A stretch of DNA of 64,000 nt from Natronorubrum aibiense. Lineage in GTDB: Archaea; Halobacteriota; Halobacteria; Halobacteriales; Natrialbaceae. Within the stretch, counting starts at the first letter, position 1, and the number at the start of each line of letters is the position of its first letter. The notes beneath the pieces are model-generated. The model saw only the letters and a program-made list of their open reading frames with translations. It made no database searches and was not told the origin of the DNA. Shown piece by piece: positions 2,574-16,750 of the stretch. The DNA is taken from the NCBI RefSeq assembly GCF_009392895.1, contig NZ_CP045488.1, positions 1,488,001 through 1,552,000 on the forward strand, written 5' to 3'. A program made the translations under genes and the position numbers.

Positions 2574-3370
2574 TTATTGTCTTGTTATTGTCTTCTTAGT
2601 TGATTAACGCGCGATTCAAAGGAGGCGACTTAGGGCATCGGTCAATCTATCAACATCGACCAATCGGCCTCCCGAGTAGGGGTATTAGATTCGTCTTGCA
2701 CAATCCGGCATAAGTCTTCTGTTGTGATATATGAAAACGTGTGTATTTACAAAGAACGTGACTTTACAAATGCGATAATCAGATGTGCGACTCGAGACTC
2801 GCACAAATCTTCGATTTGCCGACGTTCACCGTATCAAAACAGTCAAGTAAATTCTTTCTCCATTACATACCACGAGGCATCATATTGCGTGCCTCGTCCA
2901 AGCGAATTGCGCCACGGCGCACGACGAAAACCGGGTAGGGACCGTTTTTATGTCGGCGCGTCGTGGGGTTTTCTTGGCTGTATCATTTGCGACTGGAAAG
3001 GCTCACTTCCAAGCTCTGATCTGAATCACTGTACAGGTCAACGACCACGGGTCAGGTGACCCGTGGAATCCTGCCTCGACCGCTGTTGAATCCGATAGGC
3101 AAGGATATGTGACATCACGATCATATCTCTGAAACCAACAAGCAGCGATGGAGTACAGTCACTGCTATACGCGCGCACCCGATACAAAACTCTATAGTTT
3201 CGGTGTGTGGCTACCTAGCATGGGCAACTACTGTCGCACTCTGCTTCACATCGGGAGAGGGTGTCTTCCGTGTAGACGCAGGGAATCCGATACTGTCCGA
3301 GTAAGCGGACGGGTAGACCGCCTCGAGTACTAACGAAGAGACGTCAGTGCCGTCGCATCTTCGAGACTGA
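2574..3370. other. Long non-coding gap with several hairpins
   Basis: About 800 bp with no convincing gene. It holds two adjacent hairpins around 2784-2818 (stems TGTGCGA/TCGCACA and CAAATC/GATTTG), another pair around 2873-2920 (stems CGAGGCA/TGCCTCG and TGCGCC/GGCGCA), a 22-nt near-perfect palindrome at 3045-3066, and at 3148 the 13-mer ATGGAGTACAGTC. That 13-mer is identical to the first 13 bases of the intact tnpB gene at 57786, hinting at a decayed IS end. Open frames here have codon use unlike the real genes. Confidence 0.5.
3045..3066. repeat. 22-nt palindrome, copy 1 (core GGTCAGGTGACC)
   Basis: A 9-bp stem (CCACGGGTC/GACCCGTGG) closes on the loop AGGT. A second palindrome with the same core and loop but a different outer stem lies at 22057-22078. 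Role unknown; it could be an IS end or a terminator. Confidence 0.5.
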
Positions 3371-4117
3371 CTACGGAACGTTCGACAGTTGTTCTTCGAG
3401 TTCTTCTGTCGTCGTCCACGAAAAGCACTGATCTAGTGAATCGAGATGAACGAGGGAATCAGTTATCACGCCGCTATAGGATGGCGTACGACCGCCGAGT
3501 TCGGATTCCAGATACGATTCGAGATCCTGCGTCGAGATGTCCAGGCCGTGATCACGAGCGCGTTCAGCAAGCACATCCAGTTCCTCCTCGAGGTCATCAG
3601 CATGATATGCCAACTCGACGGCTCGAGCAAGTATCGAATCTTGTGTTGTGAGTAGGGAATCATCATCGTAGTGTTCGTCCTGCGCTCGAGGGAAGAGATA
3701 TGTGCGATCGAGCAGCGTCGGGCGTTCAACGCGTCCAAACTCGGCGACCGCCCCACCAGTGTCGTGTTCAAGAATTAGCGGAATCGAATCCGCGTAGAGA
3801 GCGTGGAGAAAGAACTTTACTTTGAGGTCCGGGATGTCATCCGACACATCGAGATTGGGCTGTGTGGCGAGCAAGTACGCATAGGCATTGTGCCGATGAT
3901 TCAGCACGTCAAGCGCCTCGTCGAGACGATACTTGAACGGTGGTTCGTAGCTGCCCAGAACGAAATACGTCGAATGCGGGCCAAAGAGATGCTCGTGTCG
4001 ATCTCGCATATACGAAAGGAGTCGTTCGCTATCTACTGGATCGAGGTCTAAGCGGTAGAGGATATCGTTCAGAATGAAGTCCGTGAGTTCGTCGGTGCTC
4101 TCCGGTATCTTCGCCAT
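3371..4117 (-). CDS. Uncharacterised haloarchaeal protein, possible N-ribosyltransferase/TIR-like fold
   Basis: 248-residue soluble protein. The start is taken at the ATG at 4117 (MAKIPES); the frame runs three codons further up only through a TTG. I do not recognise a named family with confidence. Visible landmarks are a YFVLGSYEPP strand-turn near residue 54, a KFFLHALYADSIPLILEH hydrophobic strand, then DTGGAVAEFGRV. An early 'LGxY' strand and a late 'GGAxxExGR' with a Glu resemble nucleoside deoxyribosyltransferase/TIR-like folds; this is inference only. The C-terminal third is acidic and helical. It is divergent from a winged-helix regulator (next gene), with paired CCAnnnTGG sites between them. 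Confidence 0.55.
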   Translation of the reverse strand: MAKIPESTDELTDFILNDILYRLDLDPVDSERLLSYMRDRHEHLFGPHSTYFVLGSYEPPFKYRLDEALDVLNHRHNAYAYLLATQPNLDVSDDIPDLKVKFFLHALYADSIPLILEHDTGGAVAEFGRVERPTLLDRTYLFPRAQDEHYDDDSLLTTQDSILARAVELAYHADDLEEELDVLAERARDHGLDISTQDLESYLESELGGRTPSYSGVITDSLVHLDSLDQCFSWTTTEELEEQLSNVP

Positions 4118-4122
4118 GCTAA

Positions 4123-4156
4123 CCAATATGGAAATATTACCTAATAACCATACTGG
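4123..4156. promoter_or_regulatory. Paired CCAnnnTGG sites between divergent genes
   Basis: Two dyad-symmetric 9-mers, CCAATATGG (4123-4131) and CCATACTGG (4148-4156), share CCAnnnTGG and are 25 bp apart in an AT-rich intergenic strip separating the start of the minus-strand gene (4117) from the plus-strand wHTH gene (4218). The position suits an operator for the wHTH protein. Not proven. Confidence 0.35.
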
Positions 4157-4217
4157 TCTAACTTAGTAAAGTTGTTCCCGTGTGCTTATGTGGCCCGGAA
4201 CCGTACATCCAATCAAC

Positions 4218-4691
4218 ATGGCCGACATCTCTGCGCATTCGAAAGCCGACAACGAGGAAAACCCCTTAGAGCGACAGCGTGAGCTGATGGAGCTGCTGTC
4301 ACAGGAAACTCGACACAGCATCATTCAGGCACTCGTGGGCCACCCGAAAATCCTCGCATCGGCGGCTGAAATCAACCATTTCATCCCGAGTAAATCGAAA
4401 AAGACCGTCGAAGAGCAGTTGGACGTACTCGTTGACGCGGACATCCTTGCGATCTACGAGTATCCCCCAAACAAGAAAAAACGCGGCTTGCCGTGGAAAT
4501 TCTACGGCTTTACCGAGTATGGTGCCAATATCCTCGGGGACTTCAACTATCTCAAGGGCGTTCCAATGGCACGAGCCGTTCACCAGAAAACAAGAAAGCC
4601 CGAGAAAATTGAGCGACACGAAACAGCCCCACGACCGCCTCTCCCAGAACCGGTCCGTACGACGTTCCGACTTGACGAAGAAACAGAATAG
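4218..4691 (+). CDS. Winged-helix transcriptional regulator (ArsR/MarR-like)
   Basis: 157-residue protein taken from the ATG at 4218 (MADISAHSK); the frame opens 12 codons earlier at a GTG, but that stretch is poorly coding. Residues about 20-110 form a wHTH: LMELLSQETRHSIIQALVGHP is the typical haloarchaeal first helix pair, followed by the recognition-helix region SAAEINHFIPSKSKKTVEEQ and a wing around EYPPNKKKRGLPWKFYGFTEYG. The basic tail ends in REPVRT-like residues and an acidic end. Likely an autoregulated DNA-binding protein. It sits between its divergent neighbour and the 20-bp repeat cluster, so either could be its target. Confidence 0.75.
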   Translation: MADISAHSKADNEENPLERQRELMELLSQETRHSIIQALVGHPKILASAAEINHFIPSKSKKTVEEQLDVLVDADILAIYEYPPNKKKRGLPWKFYGFTEYGANILGDFNYLKGVPMARAVHQKTRKPEKIERHETAPRPPLPEPVRTTFRLDEETE

Positions 4692-4907
4692 CGGAACCGT
4701 CTGCAAGTGCTGATATCCTCTCCGTGCTGAAGTGCGAAGATTCCGTCGTGGAACCGCACGTCGGTCGTGTACCCCCGAAAGCCCCGACCGAGACCATATG
4801 GGCCTCGAGGCAGTTTGCTTACTCAACCGACACGTAACAGCTGTTTCGCAAAATCTTTCTGACAAAGAAATCGCGCCACCAGTTCCTGTTGAGACTGAGA
4901 CTTCTCG

Positions 4908-5030
4908 CACACCTTTTTCGAAGTGAAATCTATTGTGAACCGCCTCGGGGTCAAGCCCCGAGGCATTCGGCCTGCTCCGCCTGTAGAAGATCTAGAGAAC
5001 TTGCCTCACCCACACCTTTGTCGAAATGAA
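4908..5030 (-). repeat. Two inverted copies of the 20-bp iteron-like motif
   Basis: Read on the minus strand, 4908-4927 is TTCACTTCGAAAAAGGTGTG and 5011-5030 is TTCATTTCGACAAAGGTGTG. Both match TTCAnTTCGAnnnnGGT and are 103 bp apart, pointing toward the regulator gene, opposite to the five downstream copies. Confidence 0.8.
4935..4987 (+). repeat. TGAAC-hairpin repeat, copy 1
   Basis: Starts TGAACCGCC, followed by a strong hairpin (GCCTCGGGG, loop TCAA, CCCCGAGGC) and then ATTCGGCCTGCTCC and CTGTAGA. Related copies follow at 5415-5467 and 9742-9850. Here it is not attached to a recognisable gene end. Confidence 0.6.
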
Positions 5031-5110
5031 ATCTAACCGCTGGACGCAGATTCAGTGGCTCACCGGCCACAAAAGTCGTACATCTCGCTTCTGTACACTC
5101 CTTTTGCAAA

Positions 5111-5130
5111 TTCACTTCGATTACGGTGTC
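5111..5130 (+). repeat. 20-bp iteron-like motif, single direct copy
   Basis: TTCACTTCGATTACGGTGTC matches the consensus TTCAnTTCGAnnnnGGTnnn. It lies about 80 bp before the four-copy tandem block and in the same orientation. Confidence 0.75.
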
Positions 5131-5206
5131 TCACTTGGCCGAGATTGACCTGATTAATGTGCTTTCAGACGGAGACAGGAAGGTTCCTATCTTCTTTTTC
5201 TCCGGT

Positions 5207-5286
5207 TTCATTTCGATAGTGGTGCCTTCATTTCGAAGCAGGTAACATCAATTCGATCACGGTTCCTTCATCTCGAAATAGGTATT
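5207..5286 (+). repeat. Four exactly tandem 20-bp iteron-like repeats
   Basis: Units at 5207-5226, 5227-5246, 5247-5266 and 5267-5286 abut without a spacer. The conserved columns are TTCA at 1-4, TTCGA at 6-10 and GGT at 15-17; unit 3 differs at base 1 and unit 4 at base 6. A 20-bp period is close to two helical turns, so bound protein would sit on one DNA face. This is the architecture of plasmid iterons or cooperative operators. A 40-codon frame starts 9 bp downstream, and the large ATPase gene lies about 670 bp downstream. Confidence 0.8.
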
Positions 5287-5294
5287 ACGGGCTA

Positions 5295-5417
5295 ATGTTC
5301 ACGTTCACTGAACCGGTTGAAGCCGTCATTGAGACGCTTGAAGAAGACGATACGTTCGATGATATTGAATTATCCACCACCCGGTCGATCGCACGCCAAT
5401 CTCTCCGTGACACGTGA
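5295..5417 (+). CDS. Possible 40-residue acidic small protein after the repeats
   Basis: Frame MFTFTEPVEAVIETLEEDD..., ending ARQSLRDT. It begins 9 bp after the last 20-bp repeat. It is acidic and predicted helical, with haloarchaeal-looking composition, but no family is recognised and it may be the 5' relic of a longer gene. Its TGA stop forms the first bases of a TGAAC-hairpin repeat, as also happens at the end of the large ATPase gene. Too short to be sure it is translated. Confidence 0.4.
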   Translation: MFTFTEPVEAVIETLEEDDTFDDIELSTTRSIARQSLRDT

Positions 5418-5467
5418 ACGGCTCGGGGTCGAAGACCCGAGATACTCGACTTGCCTCGTCTATGCAT
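5415..5467 (+). repeat. TGAAC-hairpin repeat, copy 2
   Basis: TGAACGGCTCGGGGTCGAAG then ACCCGAG forms a hairpin (stem CTCGGG/CCCGAG), followed by ATACTCGACTTGCCTCG, which aligns with the tail of copy 1. The stop codon of the 40-codon frame is the first triplet of the repeat. Confidence 0.5.
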
Positions 5468-5955
5468 TCACCTGTGGAAACGCTATTGGCCGAACGAACC
5501 ACCGCTGTCAATGCAATAGTTGTGTCGCAACGGCTATCTCCTCCTGTCACAACCGGCAGGCGGTCGAAATCTTGTTGCGGTGCGGTTGCTGTCCAGCTAT
5601 AGCAGTCGCTCATAACAAGCTACTAATATCAACATATACACCCAGCACGAAACCAACACAGAATACGAACTCGAGGCCGAATCGCTGACCGGTCGAACGA
5701 AAAAAACACACAAACCCTCGTACTCGAGAGATCACTTCAACCAGTCTATTTTGGTAGCTACTGTTATCGCCACTGTACCACCAGATGGTGTCGAGATCGC
5801 TCACCATCTCTGAAACACGACTGCATCGAACACCTATGTCAGTTGTAAATCCATTCTCAAAACACTCTTTTTAATACAAACTAAAAATAGTATATTATAA
5901 GAACCACAACAGCACGATAGTCTTCCACCGACGCAAGCTGTGTGACTCACTCATA
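5468..5955. promoter_or_regulatory. Gap and AT-rich promoter region of the large ATPase gene
   Basis: No supported gene in 5468-5860. From about 5862 to 5902 the sequence is strongly AT-rich (CTTTTTAATAC ... AAAATAGTATATTATAAG), the best candidate for the TATA/BRE region of the ATPase gene starting at 5956, about 50 bp downstream of it. Confidence 0.45.
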
Positions 5956-8900
5956 ATGGCAACACACAAACACACTTCATCCACTGACGATGCGTCCGAG
6001 GCTGATGCCAATGCCGACAGAAACACACTAGCCTCGGATTCGATGAACGACCCACGAGCGCAGACAGCAGCAAAACCACTGACAGAAAACCTCGAGTTAC
6101 GATCGTATATCGAAATTCGGCCGTCAACAAAACCGCTCAATCACGCCTCGGTTACCCAGTCGATGACGATGCTGTATGAACAACTGAACGAACCCTCAAA
6201 TCTAGGCATCAGTTCGGTGTTCAAATCCACATCGCCGACACCAACCATCGAATGGCTGCTCGTTGCAGATGGCCGCTCAGACACACAGATCAGATATCTC
6301 GTTGGAACCACTGACGATACATTTCTCGACGATCTCGAGGCGATTCTTCGAACAGCCCTTCCAAAGACGTACGAACTAACACACGTCGACTGGCATCCAC
6401 GATTGGTCGAGCAGCATCTCTCAGCCTCTGATGAAGCCCCCCAGTATGCTGCTGGCATCGAGTATCGCGGCCACACGCCCCTCCGAAAAGATTGGCTCAC
6501 ATCACTAACGTCATTTGAGGAGCAAACCACCTCGACTCCCAACGACACATCACATCGTGTCCCGCTTTCAATTCTTCTCGAGACGCTGTCCGATGCGGAT
6601 GTTCCGGTGATCTACCAACTCGTCTGTCGGCCTTTTGGTGACCAGCGCGCGGACACAGAACTGTATCGAGCCGACCTTGAGAACGGTGTCGTCACGACAG
6701 CGGACAAAGCACTCAACTTCGTCTTCCCGAACGAAACCAAAGAAAGCCAAGATCGCAGCGCACTCGCGACGTCCTACCGTGATCGCCTTGCAGATCTCGA
6801 AACGCGAGCGCTTCAGCGGACGTTTTGTCTCTCCGCTCGAGCAGTGGCACTCACACGCGGAGCACAACAGAACGCAGACACAGTCGTTCGCAGACTTGAA
6901 AACGAGTTTGCTCACCTAGGCGGCCCATTTCACGAAATCCGCGGGCATGTCTATACTGATCAGGACCTCCACACAGGCACGCTTCCGCCAGCCAGTCGAC
7001 TCTTTGAGGACCTCATTGACCGAACCTGTCACGAGCCAACATACGAAGCCACTGAAAACCGACTCCCATGGAACACACACGAAAGTGCTGGAATCGTCGC
7101 CACACCCGACGAACTCCCTGGATTTTGTTTCATCGACGGCGCTGGTCTTACCACACACGGCCAGCGAGCGCTGCGAACGCGCCAGTCAGAGCGAACCGGT
7201 CTCTCGCTTCCATCATCACACCACCTCGAGCGATACGCTGGCGAGGGACAAGCACTGTGTATGCCACTGACTGAAGATCGCCAGCCATACGGAGAGCCGT
7301 TTGTCTTACCGCCATCACTCCAAGATAGACACCTCTTCGTCGTCGGCGATACCGGCTCTGGGAAATCCGTCCTCACTATCGGTGCCCTGGGTTCTAACGT
7401 TGAAGCAACAGCAGGCCCAGAGATCCTGTTTGATTACAAAGGGAGTACAACTGCCGAAGAGTACCTCCAAACACATTACGCACAGTATGGCACCCTCGAG
7501 GACGTCCTGTATTTTGACCTCACAAAAACACTGCCAGCACTGTCGGTTTTCGATATTCGACCACTACTCGATGCCGGACTGTCACGCGAAGAGGCACGCT
7601 CGAGAATTGCAGGACACTACGAAGAGATCCTTGCCGGCTTGTTGGGAAAAGAACAGTACCACGGCGCGCCAGAGTCAACCAAAGCAATACGCAACCATCT
7701 TCGAGCGTTGTATGATCCAGTCCATGGTACCGATGCCGTCTCTCATGCAGAGCTCTTCGAGGCACTTCAACAGACGCTGAGCGATCGGACGCCACCTCCG
7801 ACATCGGATGAACGACTCACCGCGTATTTCGATGGATTGCTCGAACGCGATCGAGACGTCTTCAACAAGGTGCTTGGTGGCGCTGTTGGGCGAGTCGAAC
7901 GCATCGCGACTGATGACCGACTCGCCCCGTTATTTGATTACGTGCCCTCGAGGCACACAGACGATGAAACTGAAACTTCGAACCAAGTCGCGTCTGAGAA
8001 CGGAGACGACGCGAGTCCGCAGTTCGATTTTATCGACGTCATTGACGACGACACGGTCGTTATCTTTGATTTCGGCGGCATGGAAGAGCAAGTCAAGCGT
8101 GCGCTCACGCTCGTCTTACTCTCGAATTTGTGGACTGCGTTGAAAGCCCGCACAGAAGCCTCGCCGACGACACAACAGCTACCGCTGGTCAACCTCTATC
8201 TCGAGGAAGCAAAAGACGTCGCAGCGACACAGCTAGTCGATACGTTACTCTCACAAGGGCGCTCGTTTGGCCTGTCGGTGATGCTTGGTGTCCAATTCCC
8301 CGGGCAACTTGAATCCCCTGACCCGTCGAATCACACGTACGAAGAAGCACTCAACGAAATCGGCACGTTCGTCGTCGGCAACGTCAGTATCGGAGACGAA
8401 CTTGCGAAAGCGCTTGCGACTGACGACCTTCCACCTGGCAAGGTTGCAAGACGGCTTGCAGCGATTCGTCACGGGGAGTGGCTTATCCGCCCGGCTGCAG
8501 CGTTCGGTTCACCGCCACCACGGCCATTTCTCGGCCGGTCACTCCCTGCACCAGATGGCCATCCAGCAAGCGAGACACCGCTTACACGTGACCAACGAAC
8601 GCAGTTTACAACAGCGTTCGAACTGGCCGAACTCGAGACCTGGAACGAAGCCGGTCTCCGATCGAACTACGAACTCACACCAGCCGATGCCAATGGGAAT
8701 ACGAGAGAGGGCACATCGAATCCCAATCCAACAGCCACTGAGAGTCGTTCTCTCCGGGTCGATTCGTTGCTTCCCCACACGACACGGTTGCCCGACTGTG
8801 TCACGTACGACGAAGTGATGGATGCACTGTGTTGTGAAGCCTGTGACAATCGCTACGATCCAACGATCGATGGGATGCGGCGCACAATCGAGTGTTGTCA

Positions 8901-9744
8901 CACGCTTGATGACGTCGACTCCGATGATATCCCAGTCTGTGAACTCTCGCTCAAGCTCACACCGGACGAACGTGAGGCATCCGAGTGGACGGATCGCCAG
9001 CTACTCTTCCTTCAGGCGGTGTATAACGCCCAGCAACTTCGATACGATCCGCTCGAGTACGATCTCCTCCATGACTCGATGATCAGACTCCAAGAGTACG
9101 TTGGGATTGAAACCGACGAAATCACACCACTTCTCGAGGCAGATCTCTTACGACACGATACGGATCATCCACACCGGCTGTACACGGTTTCGTCTGCTGG
9201 CCGGACAGAAATCGGCGAGAGTTATCGACAGGGTGTCGACTACGGACATGGTATCGGCGATCTCGAAGAATCAAGCCAACACGTCTTCGGAATCGAAGTT
9301 ACCAGACGATATCTCGAAAAAGCCTATGCTGACGATCCTGATTCGCCAGTTTGTGAGGTTATCCCGTACTATGATCTCGGTGACGATGATAACCACCGCC
9401 TCGACCTCGCAGGCACCGACGCCGATGGTGAGATTATCGTCACCGCAGAAGTCGAACGGATCAACAACGACGTTCACCGTGCAGTTCCTGACGACTACGA
9501 CAAGATGGCCGCCTGTGATCCCGAGGAGGCAATTTGGGTCGTTATGAAGCAAGCTGACGGCCACAAGGTCCTCTCTGCGCTTACTGATCCACTCGAAGGC
9601 GATCCTCGAGTCGAGAAAACATACGCCAAAACGACACCACCACAACAGTTCCGTATTGATACCCCTGGTATGACTGCTGTCTATCCAGCGGAGTGGTTAC
9701 TAGACCGAACGGAAGCTGGCGAATTCCCCAGTCGGAGTGAGTGA
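5956..9744 (+). CDS. HerA/VirB4-like ATPase with Cys cluster and nuclease-like C-terminus
   Basis: 1262-residue P-loop ATPase of the FtsK/HerA/TraG-VirB4 superfamily, the DNA- or substrate-pumping motors of conjugation, end processing and some defence systems. Walker A GDTGSGKS is at 464-471, the Walker B-like strand LVNLYLEEAKD has the acidic pair at E750-E751, and the sensor-like GVQFPGQ spans 778-784. The first 450 residues match nothing I recognise. Residues 956-982 carry a Cys cluster (CCEAC at 959-963, ECCH at 979-982), possibly zinc-binding. Near the C-terminus, a D at 1150 and EVE at 1165-1167 between predicted strands resemble a PD-(D/E)xK nuclease core lacking the Lys; this is inference. 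No transmembrane segment is seen. Codon use is AT-richer than the window's core genes, suggesting transfer. The stop codon is the start of a TGAAC-hairpin repeat. Confidence 0.75.
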   Translation: MATHKHTSSTDDASEADANADRNTLASDSMNDPRAQTAAKPLTENLELRSYIEIRPSTKPLNHASVTQSMTMLYEQLNEPSNLGISSVFKSTSPTPTIEWLLVADGRSDTQIRYLVGTTDDTFLDDLEAILRTALPKTYELTHVDWHPRLVEQHLSASDEAPQYAAGIEYRGHTPLRKDWLTSLTSFEEQTTSTPNDTSHRVPLSILLETLSDADVPVIYQLVCRPFGDQRADTELYRADLENGVVTTADKALNFVFPNETKESQDRSALATSYRDRLADLETRALQRTFCLSARAVALTRGAQQNADTVVRRLENEFAHLGGPFHEIRGHVYTDQDLHTGTLPPASRLFEDLIDRTCHEPTYEATENRLPWNTHESAGIVATPDELPGFCFIDGAGLTTHGQRALRTRQSERTGLSLPSSHHLERYAGEGQALCMPLTEDRQPYGEPFVLPPSLQDRHLFVVGDTGSGKSVLTIGALGSNVEATAGPEILFDYKGSTTAEEYLQTHYAQYGTLEDVLYFDLTKTLPALSVFDIRPLLDAGLSREEARSRIAGHYEEILAGLLGKEQYHGAPESTKAIRNHLRALYDPVHGTDAVSHAELFEALQQTLSDRTPPPTSDERLTAYFDGLLERDRDVFNKVLGGAVGRVERIATDDRLAPLFDYVPSRHTDDETETSNQVASENGDDASPQFDFIDVIDDDTVVIFDFGGMEEQVKRALTLVLLSNLWTALKARTEASPTTQQLPLVNLYLEEAKDVAATQLVDTLLSQGRSFGLSVMLGVQFPGQLESPDPSNHTYEEALNEIGTFVVGNVSIGDELAKALATDDLPPGKVARRLAAIRHGEWLIRPAAAFGSPPPRPFLGRSLPAPDGHPASETPLTRDQRTQFTTAFELAELETWNEAGLRSNYELTPADANGNTREGTSNPNPTATESRSLRVDSLLPHTTRLPDCVTYDEVMDALCCEACDNRYDPTIDGMRRTIECCHTLDDVDSDDIPVCELSLKLTPDEREASEWTDRQLLFLQAVYNAQQLRYDPLEYDLLHDSMIRLQEYVGIETDEITPLLEADLLRHDTDHPHRLYTVSSAGRTEIGESYRQGVDYGHGIGDLEESSQHVFGIEVTRRYLEKAYADDPDSPVCEVIPYYDLGDDDNHRLDLAGTDADGEIIVTAEVERINNDVHRAVPDDYDKMAACDPEEAIWVVMKQADGHKVLSALTDPLEGDPRVEKTYAKTTPPQQFRIDTPGMTAVYPAEWLLDRTEAGEFPSRSE

Positions 9745-16001: not shown

Positions 16002-16750
16002 ATCCGGTCCGAGTCGACGCGGCCGTCGACCTTGCCTATGGGGCATTGATTGCGCTCTCGATCCTGCTGATCATGGTTCTCGGCACGAACGTTGGAATCG
16101 CGTTCGGGATCGGTGTGTTTGCCTCGTACGTCATCCACGTCGTCTGGAAGATGGCACGCTTCGATCCCGATTGGATGACCAGGGCCGTCCAGGAATCGGT
16201 CGAGGAGAGCGTGGGCGAAACCGTCGAAGAGACTGTGGGCGAAACCGTCGAGAAACAGGTCGGAGAGACCGTCGAAGAGACAGTAGGTGAAACCGTCGAG
16301 AAGACGGTGGGCGAGACCGTCGAGAAACAGGTCGGAGAGACTGTTGAGGAAACGGTGGGCGAGACCGTCGAGAAGACGGTGGGCGAGACCGTCGAGAAAC
16401 AGGTCGGAGAGACTGTTGAGGAAACGGTGGGCGAGACCGTCGAGAAACAGGTCGGAGAGACTGTTGAGGAAACGGTAGGCGAGACTGTCGAGGAAACGGT
16501 AGGCGAGACTGTCGAGGAAACGGTGGGCGAGACCGTCGAGAAACAGGTTGGAGAGACTGTCGAGGAGACGGTGGGCGAAACCGTCGAAGAGGCCATCGAA
16601 CGAACCGTCGGAGAACAGCTCAACGAGATGCAAGCGGAGGTCAAAGCCGTCGACGAGCGCATCGATCGCCGTCCTCGCGAGGACGAAATCGAGGAGTTGA
16701 TCGATAGATCTACTGACGACGATCAGACGGAGCGCACCGACGACAACTGA
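15995..16750 (+). CDS. Membrane-anchored octapeptide-repeat (coiled-coil) protein
   Basis: About 251 residues from the GTG at 15995 (V/MLNPVRVDAAVD); the frame continues upstream but that part looks non-coding. Two hydrophobic segments (about residues 11-45) come first, then a basic/aromatic patch VWKMARFDPDWM. Sixteen consecutive 8-residue units follow (VGETVEET, VGETVEKQ or VGETVEKT; nucleotides 16211-16594), then EAIERTVGEQLNEMQAEVKAVDERI and an acidic tail. Val at positions 1 and 5 of each unit suggests a long amphipathic helix. No family recognised. It lies between two PiT permeases and a UspA gene. Confidence 0.65.
   Translation: MLNPVRVDAAVDLAYGALIALSILLIMVLGTNVGIAFGIGVFASYVIHVVWKMARFDPDWMTRAVQESVEESVGETVEETVGETVEKQVGETVEETVGETVEKTVGETVEKQVGETVEETVGETVEKTVGETVEKQVGETVEETVGETVEKQVGETVEETVGETVEETVGETVEETVGETVEKQVGETVEETVGETVEEAIERTVGEQLNEMQAEVKAVDERIDRRPREDEIEELIDRSTDDDQTERTDDN
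16211..16594 (+). repeat. 24-bp tandem repeat, 16 units, coding for octapeptides
   Basis: Sixteen head-to-tail 24-bp units encode VGETVExx. Neighbouring units are near-identical and share higher-order order (ET, KQ, ET, KT, KQ, ET, KT, KQ), which points to recent unequal exchange or slippage. Confidence 0.95.

Follow-up and report, generated by a model that had tools for sequence, protein, structure and literature searches.

The seven 20-bp repeats of the 64-kb window (the whole stretch of DNA analysed here) are, by comparison with related loci, the origin recognition boxes (ORBs) of one Orc1/Cdc6 origin family, a family that differs from the classical oriC1 type. The block they form is probably (about 85%) a decapitated origin of the Orc1/Cdc6 type, most likely silent and decaying. 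The coordinates of its elements are given in Table 1.

Table 1. Elements of the putative relic origin and of the related loci used for comparison
Feature	Position	Strand	Remarks
ORB 1 (inverted, outer)	4908-4927	-	24.9 bits
Dispersed palindromic repeat insertion	4935-4983		49 bp, splits ORB 1/ORB 2; match spans 4934-4987
ORB 2 (inverted, inner)	5011-5030	-	28.8 bits, top site of window
Spacer between divergent ORBs	5031-5110		80 bp, 50% GC; expected place of duplex unwinding
ORB 3 (direct)	5111-5130	+	27.3 bits; 96 bp to next direct copy, as in g16/g20-type origins
ORB 4 (tandem)	5207-5226	+	27.2 bits
ORB 5 (tandem)	5227-5246	+	18.2 bits
ORB 6 (tandem, one mismatch)	5247-5266	+	16.9 bits
ORB 7 (tandem, one mismatch; gene-proximal)	5267-5286	+	17.6 bits; GGTATT end, same in intact relatives
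Deletion junction	5287-5300		about 1,246 bp missing relative to intact loci; possible TGTTCA microhomology
orc1/cdc6 remnant	5295-5417	+	last 40 codons and stop, open frame, MFTFTEPVEAVIETLEEDDTFDDIELSTTRSIARQSLRDT; homology to initiator C-terminus
Mini-Orc, 68-aa open frame	G109 L165 4218-4424; G107 L182 4539-4745		in-frame internal deletion
Initiator domains (intact relative), residues	AAA+ 84-238; lid (Cdc6_lid) 258-322; Cdc6_C winged-helix 334-425		

The repeat array and its layout

All seven copies were recovered at the positions and on the strands given by a previous sequence-only reading, with four units (5207-5286) abutting at a period of exactly 20 bp. Only 0.0034 matches are expected per 380 bp (Poisson P ~1e-21). 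The motif TTCAnTTCGAnnnnGGT is perfect in five of the seven units, while tandem units 3 and 4 each carry one mismatch at a conserved base; the earlier statement that the conserved columns are the same in all copies was therefore slightly overstated. At one mismatch or less, the 4.35-Mb genome contains 46 matches, the 7 of the array and 39 scattered singles, and no second cluster was found anywhere in it. A matrix was built from 185 units of intact origins in other genomes (consensus TTCATTTCGAnnACGGTGTG). When the window was scanned with it, the array units were the seven top sites (16.9 to 28.8 bits), the next one scoring 11.6 bits. The array is real and unique in the genome.

Its layout is that of intact loci, with inverted ORBs on one side of the spacer and direct ORBs on the other. 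The intact origins measured consist of inverted copies, a spacer of 79-82 bp (16 of 16) and direct copies reaching to just before the gene. GC content is 46% in the next spacer of the window, 37-62% in the spacers of intact relatives and about 63% in the chromosomal part of the window. The step to the next direct copy is 95-96 bp in g16/g20-type origins, as in the window; most other origins have a step of about 51-55 bp, among them the one that the congener G103 carries at its rtcB locus. The residues IELST of the initiator remnant described below also resemble the g16/g20 group.

Between the inverted copies the distance is 103 bp in the window, against 54 bp in relatives. The 49 extra bases, a gap in the alignment with relatives, are a single inserted copy of a palindromic repeat about 52 bp long (GTGAACCGCCTCGGGGTCAAGCCCCGAGGCAYTCGGCCTGCTCCGCCTGTAGA). 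Its copies are dispersed and often 94-98% identical, with sharp ends and in unrelated contexts. This repeat is near-identical in most of the 125 genomes of the family and is also found in plasmids of other haloarchaeal families; a query with the array matched 116 of the 125 genomes, mostly through it. At three plasmid copies inspected, no annotated TnpB gene lies within 2 kb. The possibility that the repeat is an end of the window's sot0042 RNA was rejected, since no similarity was found.

Intact relatives and the initiator remnant

A degenerate pattern of two abutting units, run on one genome per species, gave 10 matches. Five of these are in Natrialbaceae, and all five hold arrays of the same motif with about 10 or more units each. 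The matches outside the haloarchaea are repeats with a period of 10 or 20 bp but a different sequence, and not the ORB motif. In the three genomes with frames listed (Haloterrigena salina, Natronorubrum halalkaliphilum and Halobiforma haloterrestris), the array stands directly upstream of an Orc1/Cdc6 gene. The search for motif clusters in haloarchaeal genomes and plasmids, proposed in the sequence-only reading, led to arrays upstream of Orc1/Cdc6 genes. The view expressed there that the array does not resemble ORBs has to be abandoned: the array corresponds to the ORBs of a non-oriC1 Orc1/Cdc6 family, shared with 17 intact loci. The initiator of these relatives matches the orc1/cdc6 family profile TIGR02928 with 343.8 bits (cut-off 181.3) and resembles in sequence archaeal Cdc6 proteins of solved structure (e.g. 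2qby, 2v1u).

An initiator at least 80% identical occurs in 17 of the 125 family genomes, all other Natrialbaceae than the one analysed here, and in each of the 17 the same array and layout lie upstream of the full-length gene. Only 3 of the 108 genomes lacking this initiator contain the tandem array (Fisher P = 2.9e-18). With up to three mismatches allowed, the tandem pattern is present in 20 genomes, namely these 17, the window genome, G003 and G030. The G030 match is a single one at three mismatches, apparently due to chance, and a reversed control pattern gave no match in any genome. The site in G003 (contig C3, about 847.1 kb; L202 5111-5180) has three motif units with the GGGGTG end seen upstream of Halorubrum plasmid initiators. 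Its neighbours are a tyrosine integrase gene on one side and small genes on the other, no cognate Orc was found in G003, and the site is possibly an ORB mimic borne by a virus or another element.

Across the class, initiator relatives (E <= 1e-150) have a patchy spread (36 of 391 genomes, 13 of 86 genera). Relatives are also encoded on two Halorubrum megaplasmids, with motif copies upstream of their genes. In plasmid pCBA1229 of Halorubrum sp. CBA1229 (L170 3060-5001), an annotated TnpB-family gene separates the initiator gene from the ORB array, and the initiator alignment begins only at residue 42; this is perhaps another disrupted origin.

In the window, only the end of such a gene is left. 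Residues 412-453 of the H. salina initiator align with positions 5289-5414 (chromosome 1493289-1493414) at 83% identity (E = 1.1e-15), with no stop within the match. The ATG of the remnant lies 8 bp past the last repeat. Compared over the final 40 residues, its product shows 76-88% amino-acid identity to 16 of the 17 intact orthologues, a range that omits the plasmid-like L117, with which there is no gap-free alignment in that part. The distance from the last ORB to the homologous codon is 8 bp in the window and 1,251-1,254 bp in intact loci, indicating that about 1,246 bp were lost, from just before the start of the initiator gene to about codon 412. What stayed behind is the array with its spacer and the final 40 codons. 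The loss includes the AAA+ domain, and of the winged helix only the last dozen residues are left, together with the tail; from this domain map, the product should be unable to work as an initiator. In a related intact locus (L110), TGTTCA is found upstream of the start codon and again at the downstream site, suggesting that the deletion in the window may have used a short direct repeat.

No cognate initiator was found elsewhere in the genome, where the best of many paralogues is 45% identical, nor was a second initiator fragment. With neither a full-length orc1/cdc6 gene beside the array nor a cognate copy at a distance, the site is classed as a relic rather than an intact origin. The earlier proposal of an origin that has lost its Rep gene was therefore correct as to an origin-type array deprived of its initiator, but the lost gene is orc1/cdc6, still visible as a stub, and not a plasmid rep gene.

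The same initiator has been lost elsewhere in the genus. In G103, an intact origin lies between rtcB and moaA. At the rtcB locus of G107 and G109, residues up to 40 are fused in frame to residues 423-453 and two ORBs are left. The two mini-frames differ by 8 amino-acid-changing and 7 silent codon differences. Nothing recognisable of the origin was found at the rtcB-moaA locus in the window genome and in six other genomes of the genus, and the origin copy in the window is at a separate place. The deletion shared by G107 and G109 is independent of the one in the window, so that the genus has seen at least two distinct deletions of this initiator. Together with their intact relatives, these loci make up a graded series: intact, internally deleted, decapitated and absent.

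Genomic setting and neighbouring genes

The location of the array in an AT-richer island was borne out. It lies within a low-GC stretch of about 137 kb (G000:C1, about 1.363-1.500 Mb; mostly 39-60% GC against about 63%), some 7 kb from its right end. The right end of this island forms the left part of the window. No other Orc gene and no tRNA or tested integrase genes were found in the island. Its ends likewise showed neither these genes nor long direct repeats, and a search for island-wide synteny in a congener found none. GC skew over 400 kb has its cumulative minimum at the array, but a single 5-kb bin accounts for this, and the flanks of 100 kb on either side are not different (P = 0.22).

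Two divergently oriented genes, at 3371-4126 and 4182-4691, turn up together, with sharp edges, at many unrelated chromosomal and plasmid sites. The pair (window 3331-4709) encodes a 251-aa protein of no known family and a winged-helix regulator, its copies are 77-87% identical in DNA sequence, and it looks like a mobile two-gene module. On the other side, positions 5956-9744 encode a 1262-aa HerA/VirB4-like ATPase weakly similar to the defence-system ATPase model mad8 (E 9.7e-12); its C-terminal part may be a nuclease-like domain. Among 19 ATPase relatives (46-83% identity, L022-L040) and 22 close winged-helix orthologues (L062-L083), none has the array in the 1.5-kb flanks; it belongs to neither neighbour gene. 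Further away, a coding tandem repeat (VEETVGETVEKQVGET; 24-, 48- and 72-bp periods, about 16 units) occupies positions 16199-16591 within a 321-aa frame.

Searches of mobile elements returned no phage match to the array. Plasmid matches fall on the winged-helix block, on the dispersed repeat and on a segment at about 5466-5612, and none on the array. The sole IMG/VR match, in polymerase-type genes of an apparent bacterial phage, was attributed to chance.

Fate of the origin and comparison with known systems

In the intact form, an Orc1/Cdc6 initiator would bind the 20-bp ORBs around the 80-bp spacer, with direct copies up to its own gene, and would then open the DNA and recruit the helicase, as in characterised archaeal origins. 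The window copy probably remains from an island or replicon that entered the chromosome with an origin of its own; the intact ancestral state at this very locus was seen in no genome. The deletion of the initiator, the lack of a cognate in the genome and the repeat inserted between the outer two ORBs together suggest that the origin is most likely silent and decaying. The good preservation of the ORBs and the spacer and the open frame of the stub point either to recent decay or to something being maintained. In addition, a plasmid of Natrinema J7 (pFJ6; PMC5350488) replicated from a predicted origin that has seven ORBs but lacks a neighbouring cdc6, so that a missing linked gene is not proof of inactivity.

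This J7 case, the well-preserved ORBs and the observation that H. hispanica Cdc6 proteins can act on origin plasmids in trans (PMC3936714) would all fit a still-active origin that one of the strain's many other Orc1/Cdc6 paralogues fires in trans. We consider this unlikely given that the nearest paralogue is only 45% identical while ORBs and initiators are family-specific, that no motif cluster occurs at any of the paralogue loci of the genome and that the GC-skew shift at the site is not significant. A related and rather improbable scenario is that the orphan array was retained from the island of about 137 kb as a working origin without an initiator of its own, after switching to a non-cognate Orc1/Cdc6 paralogue. 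Retention of the array and stub for a new role of the 40-residue peptide or of the ORBs, for example as an Orc decoy, is very unlikely. The stub frame is open, the mini-Orc of G107 and G109 likewise ends in the C-terminus, and oriC2 of H. hispanica is under negative control by a separate ORB-rich region (PMC3936714); against this, the stub has no AAA+ domain and hardly any of the winged helix, the codon differences between the two mini-frames look relaxed, and no cognate Orc is left for titration.

The two functions suggested by the sequence-only reading fare no better. An operator of the ATPase or of the winged-helix gene would suit tandem units in helical phase lying between both genes, but it has very little probability: the array co-occurs with Orc1/Cdc6 and not with relatives of either gene, homologous loci keep the ATPase without the tandem block, and the winged-helix and 251-aa genes move together from one unrelated context to another. 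Plasmid iterons of a rep-type origin, to which direct 20-bp repeats in helical phase would also correspond, are the least probable of all. This interpretation is already refuted by the stub, the remnant beside the repeats being Orc1/Cdc6 and not rep; the adjacent initiator is Orc1/Cdc6 in every intact case examined, and the array itself has no phage or plasmid match. Tandem, helically phased repeats beside a former initiator gene are indeed common to iterons and to the window, but the latter has inverted copies around a fixed 80-bp spacer and an initiator of another type.

The decapitated Orc1/Cdc6 origin favoured here has a close counterpart in the rtcB-moaA origin of H. salina JCM 13891 and N. 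halalkaliphilum (L051, L053), with the same motif, order and initiator family. That origin has an intact initiator and at least 13 ORBs, compared with seven in the window, and occupies a different chromosomal place. More generally, the locus is a decayed case of the haloarchaeal orc/cdc6-adjacent origins, a kind already seen broken in H. hispanica. According to Wu et al. 2012 (PMC3528665), repeated ORBs precede an orc1/cdc6 gene of a single sequence family in such origins, the ORB family matching the initiator family. In comparison with those, the initiator in the window is cut to a 40-codon stub, and its ORB is short (20 bp) and devoid of the G-string of the H. volcanii and H. hispanica origins.

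Published work favours silence of the site: the origins of H. hispanica need a co-located cdc6, although it can be supplied in trans (PMC3936714), and those with a disrupted cdc6 or origin region are inactive (PMC4441112). Like the window, oriC3-cdc6D, oriC4-cdc6G and oriC5-cdc6H of this species (Wu et al. 2014, PMC4441112) combine ORBs with a broken initiator. They are nonfunctional and lie in variable regions, disrupted by a transposase in the origin, by loss of the cdc6 promoter and start, or by separation of the C-terminal winged helix (PMC4441112). The window differs in that the initiator is almost wholly missing, with only its extreme C-terminus beside the ORBs. Haloarchaea hold many origins, and the gain and switching-off of surplus ones are only partly documented. 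The value of this locus lies in the graded decay series and in a clean ORB consensus rather than in a new kind of system: a clear 20-bp consensus for one Orc1/Cdc6 family makes initiator-origin specificity directly testable, as is revival of the orphan array once its initiator is supplied.
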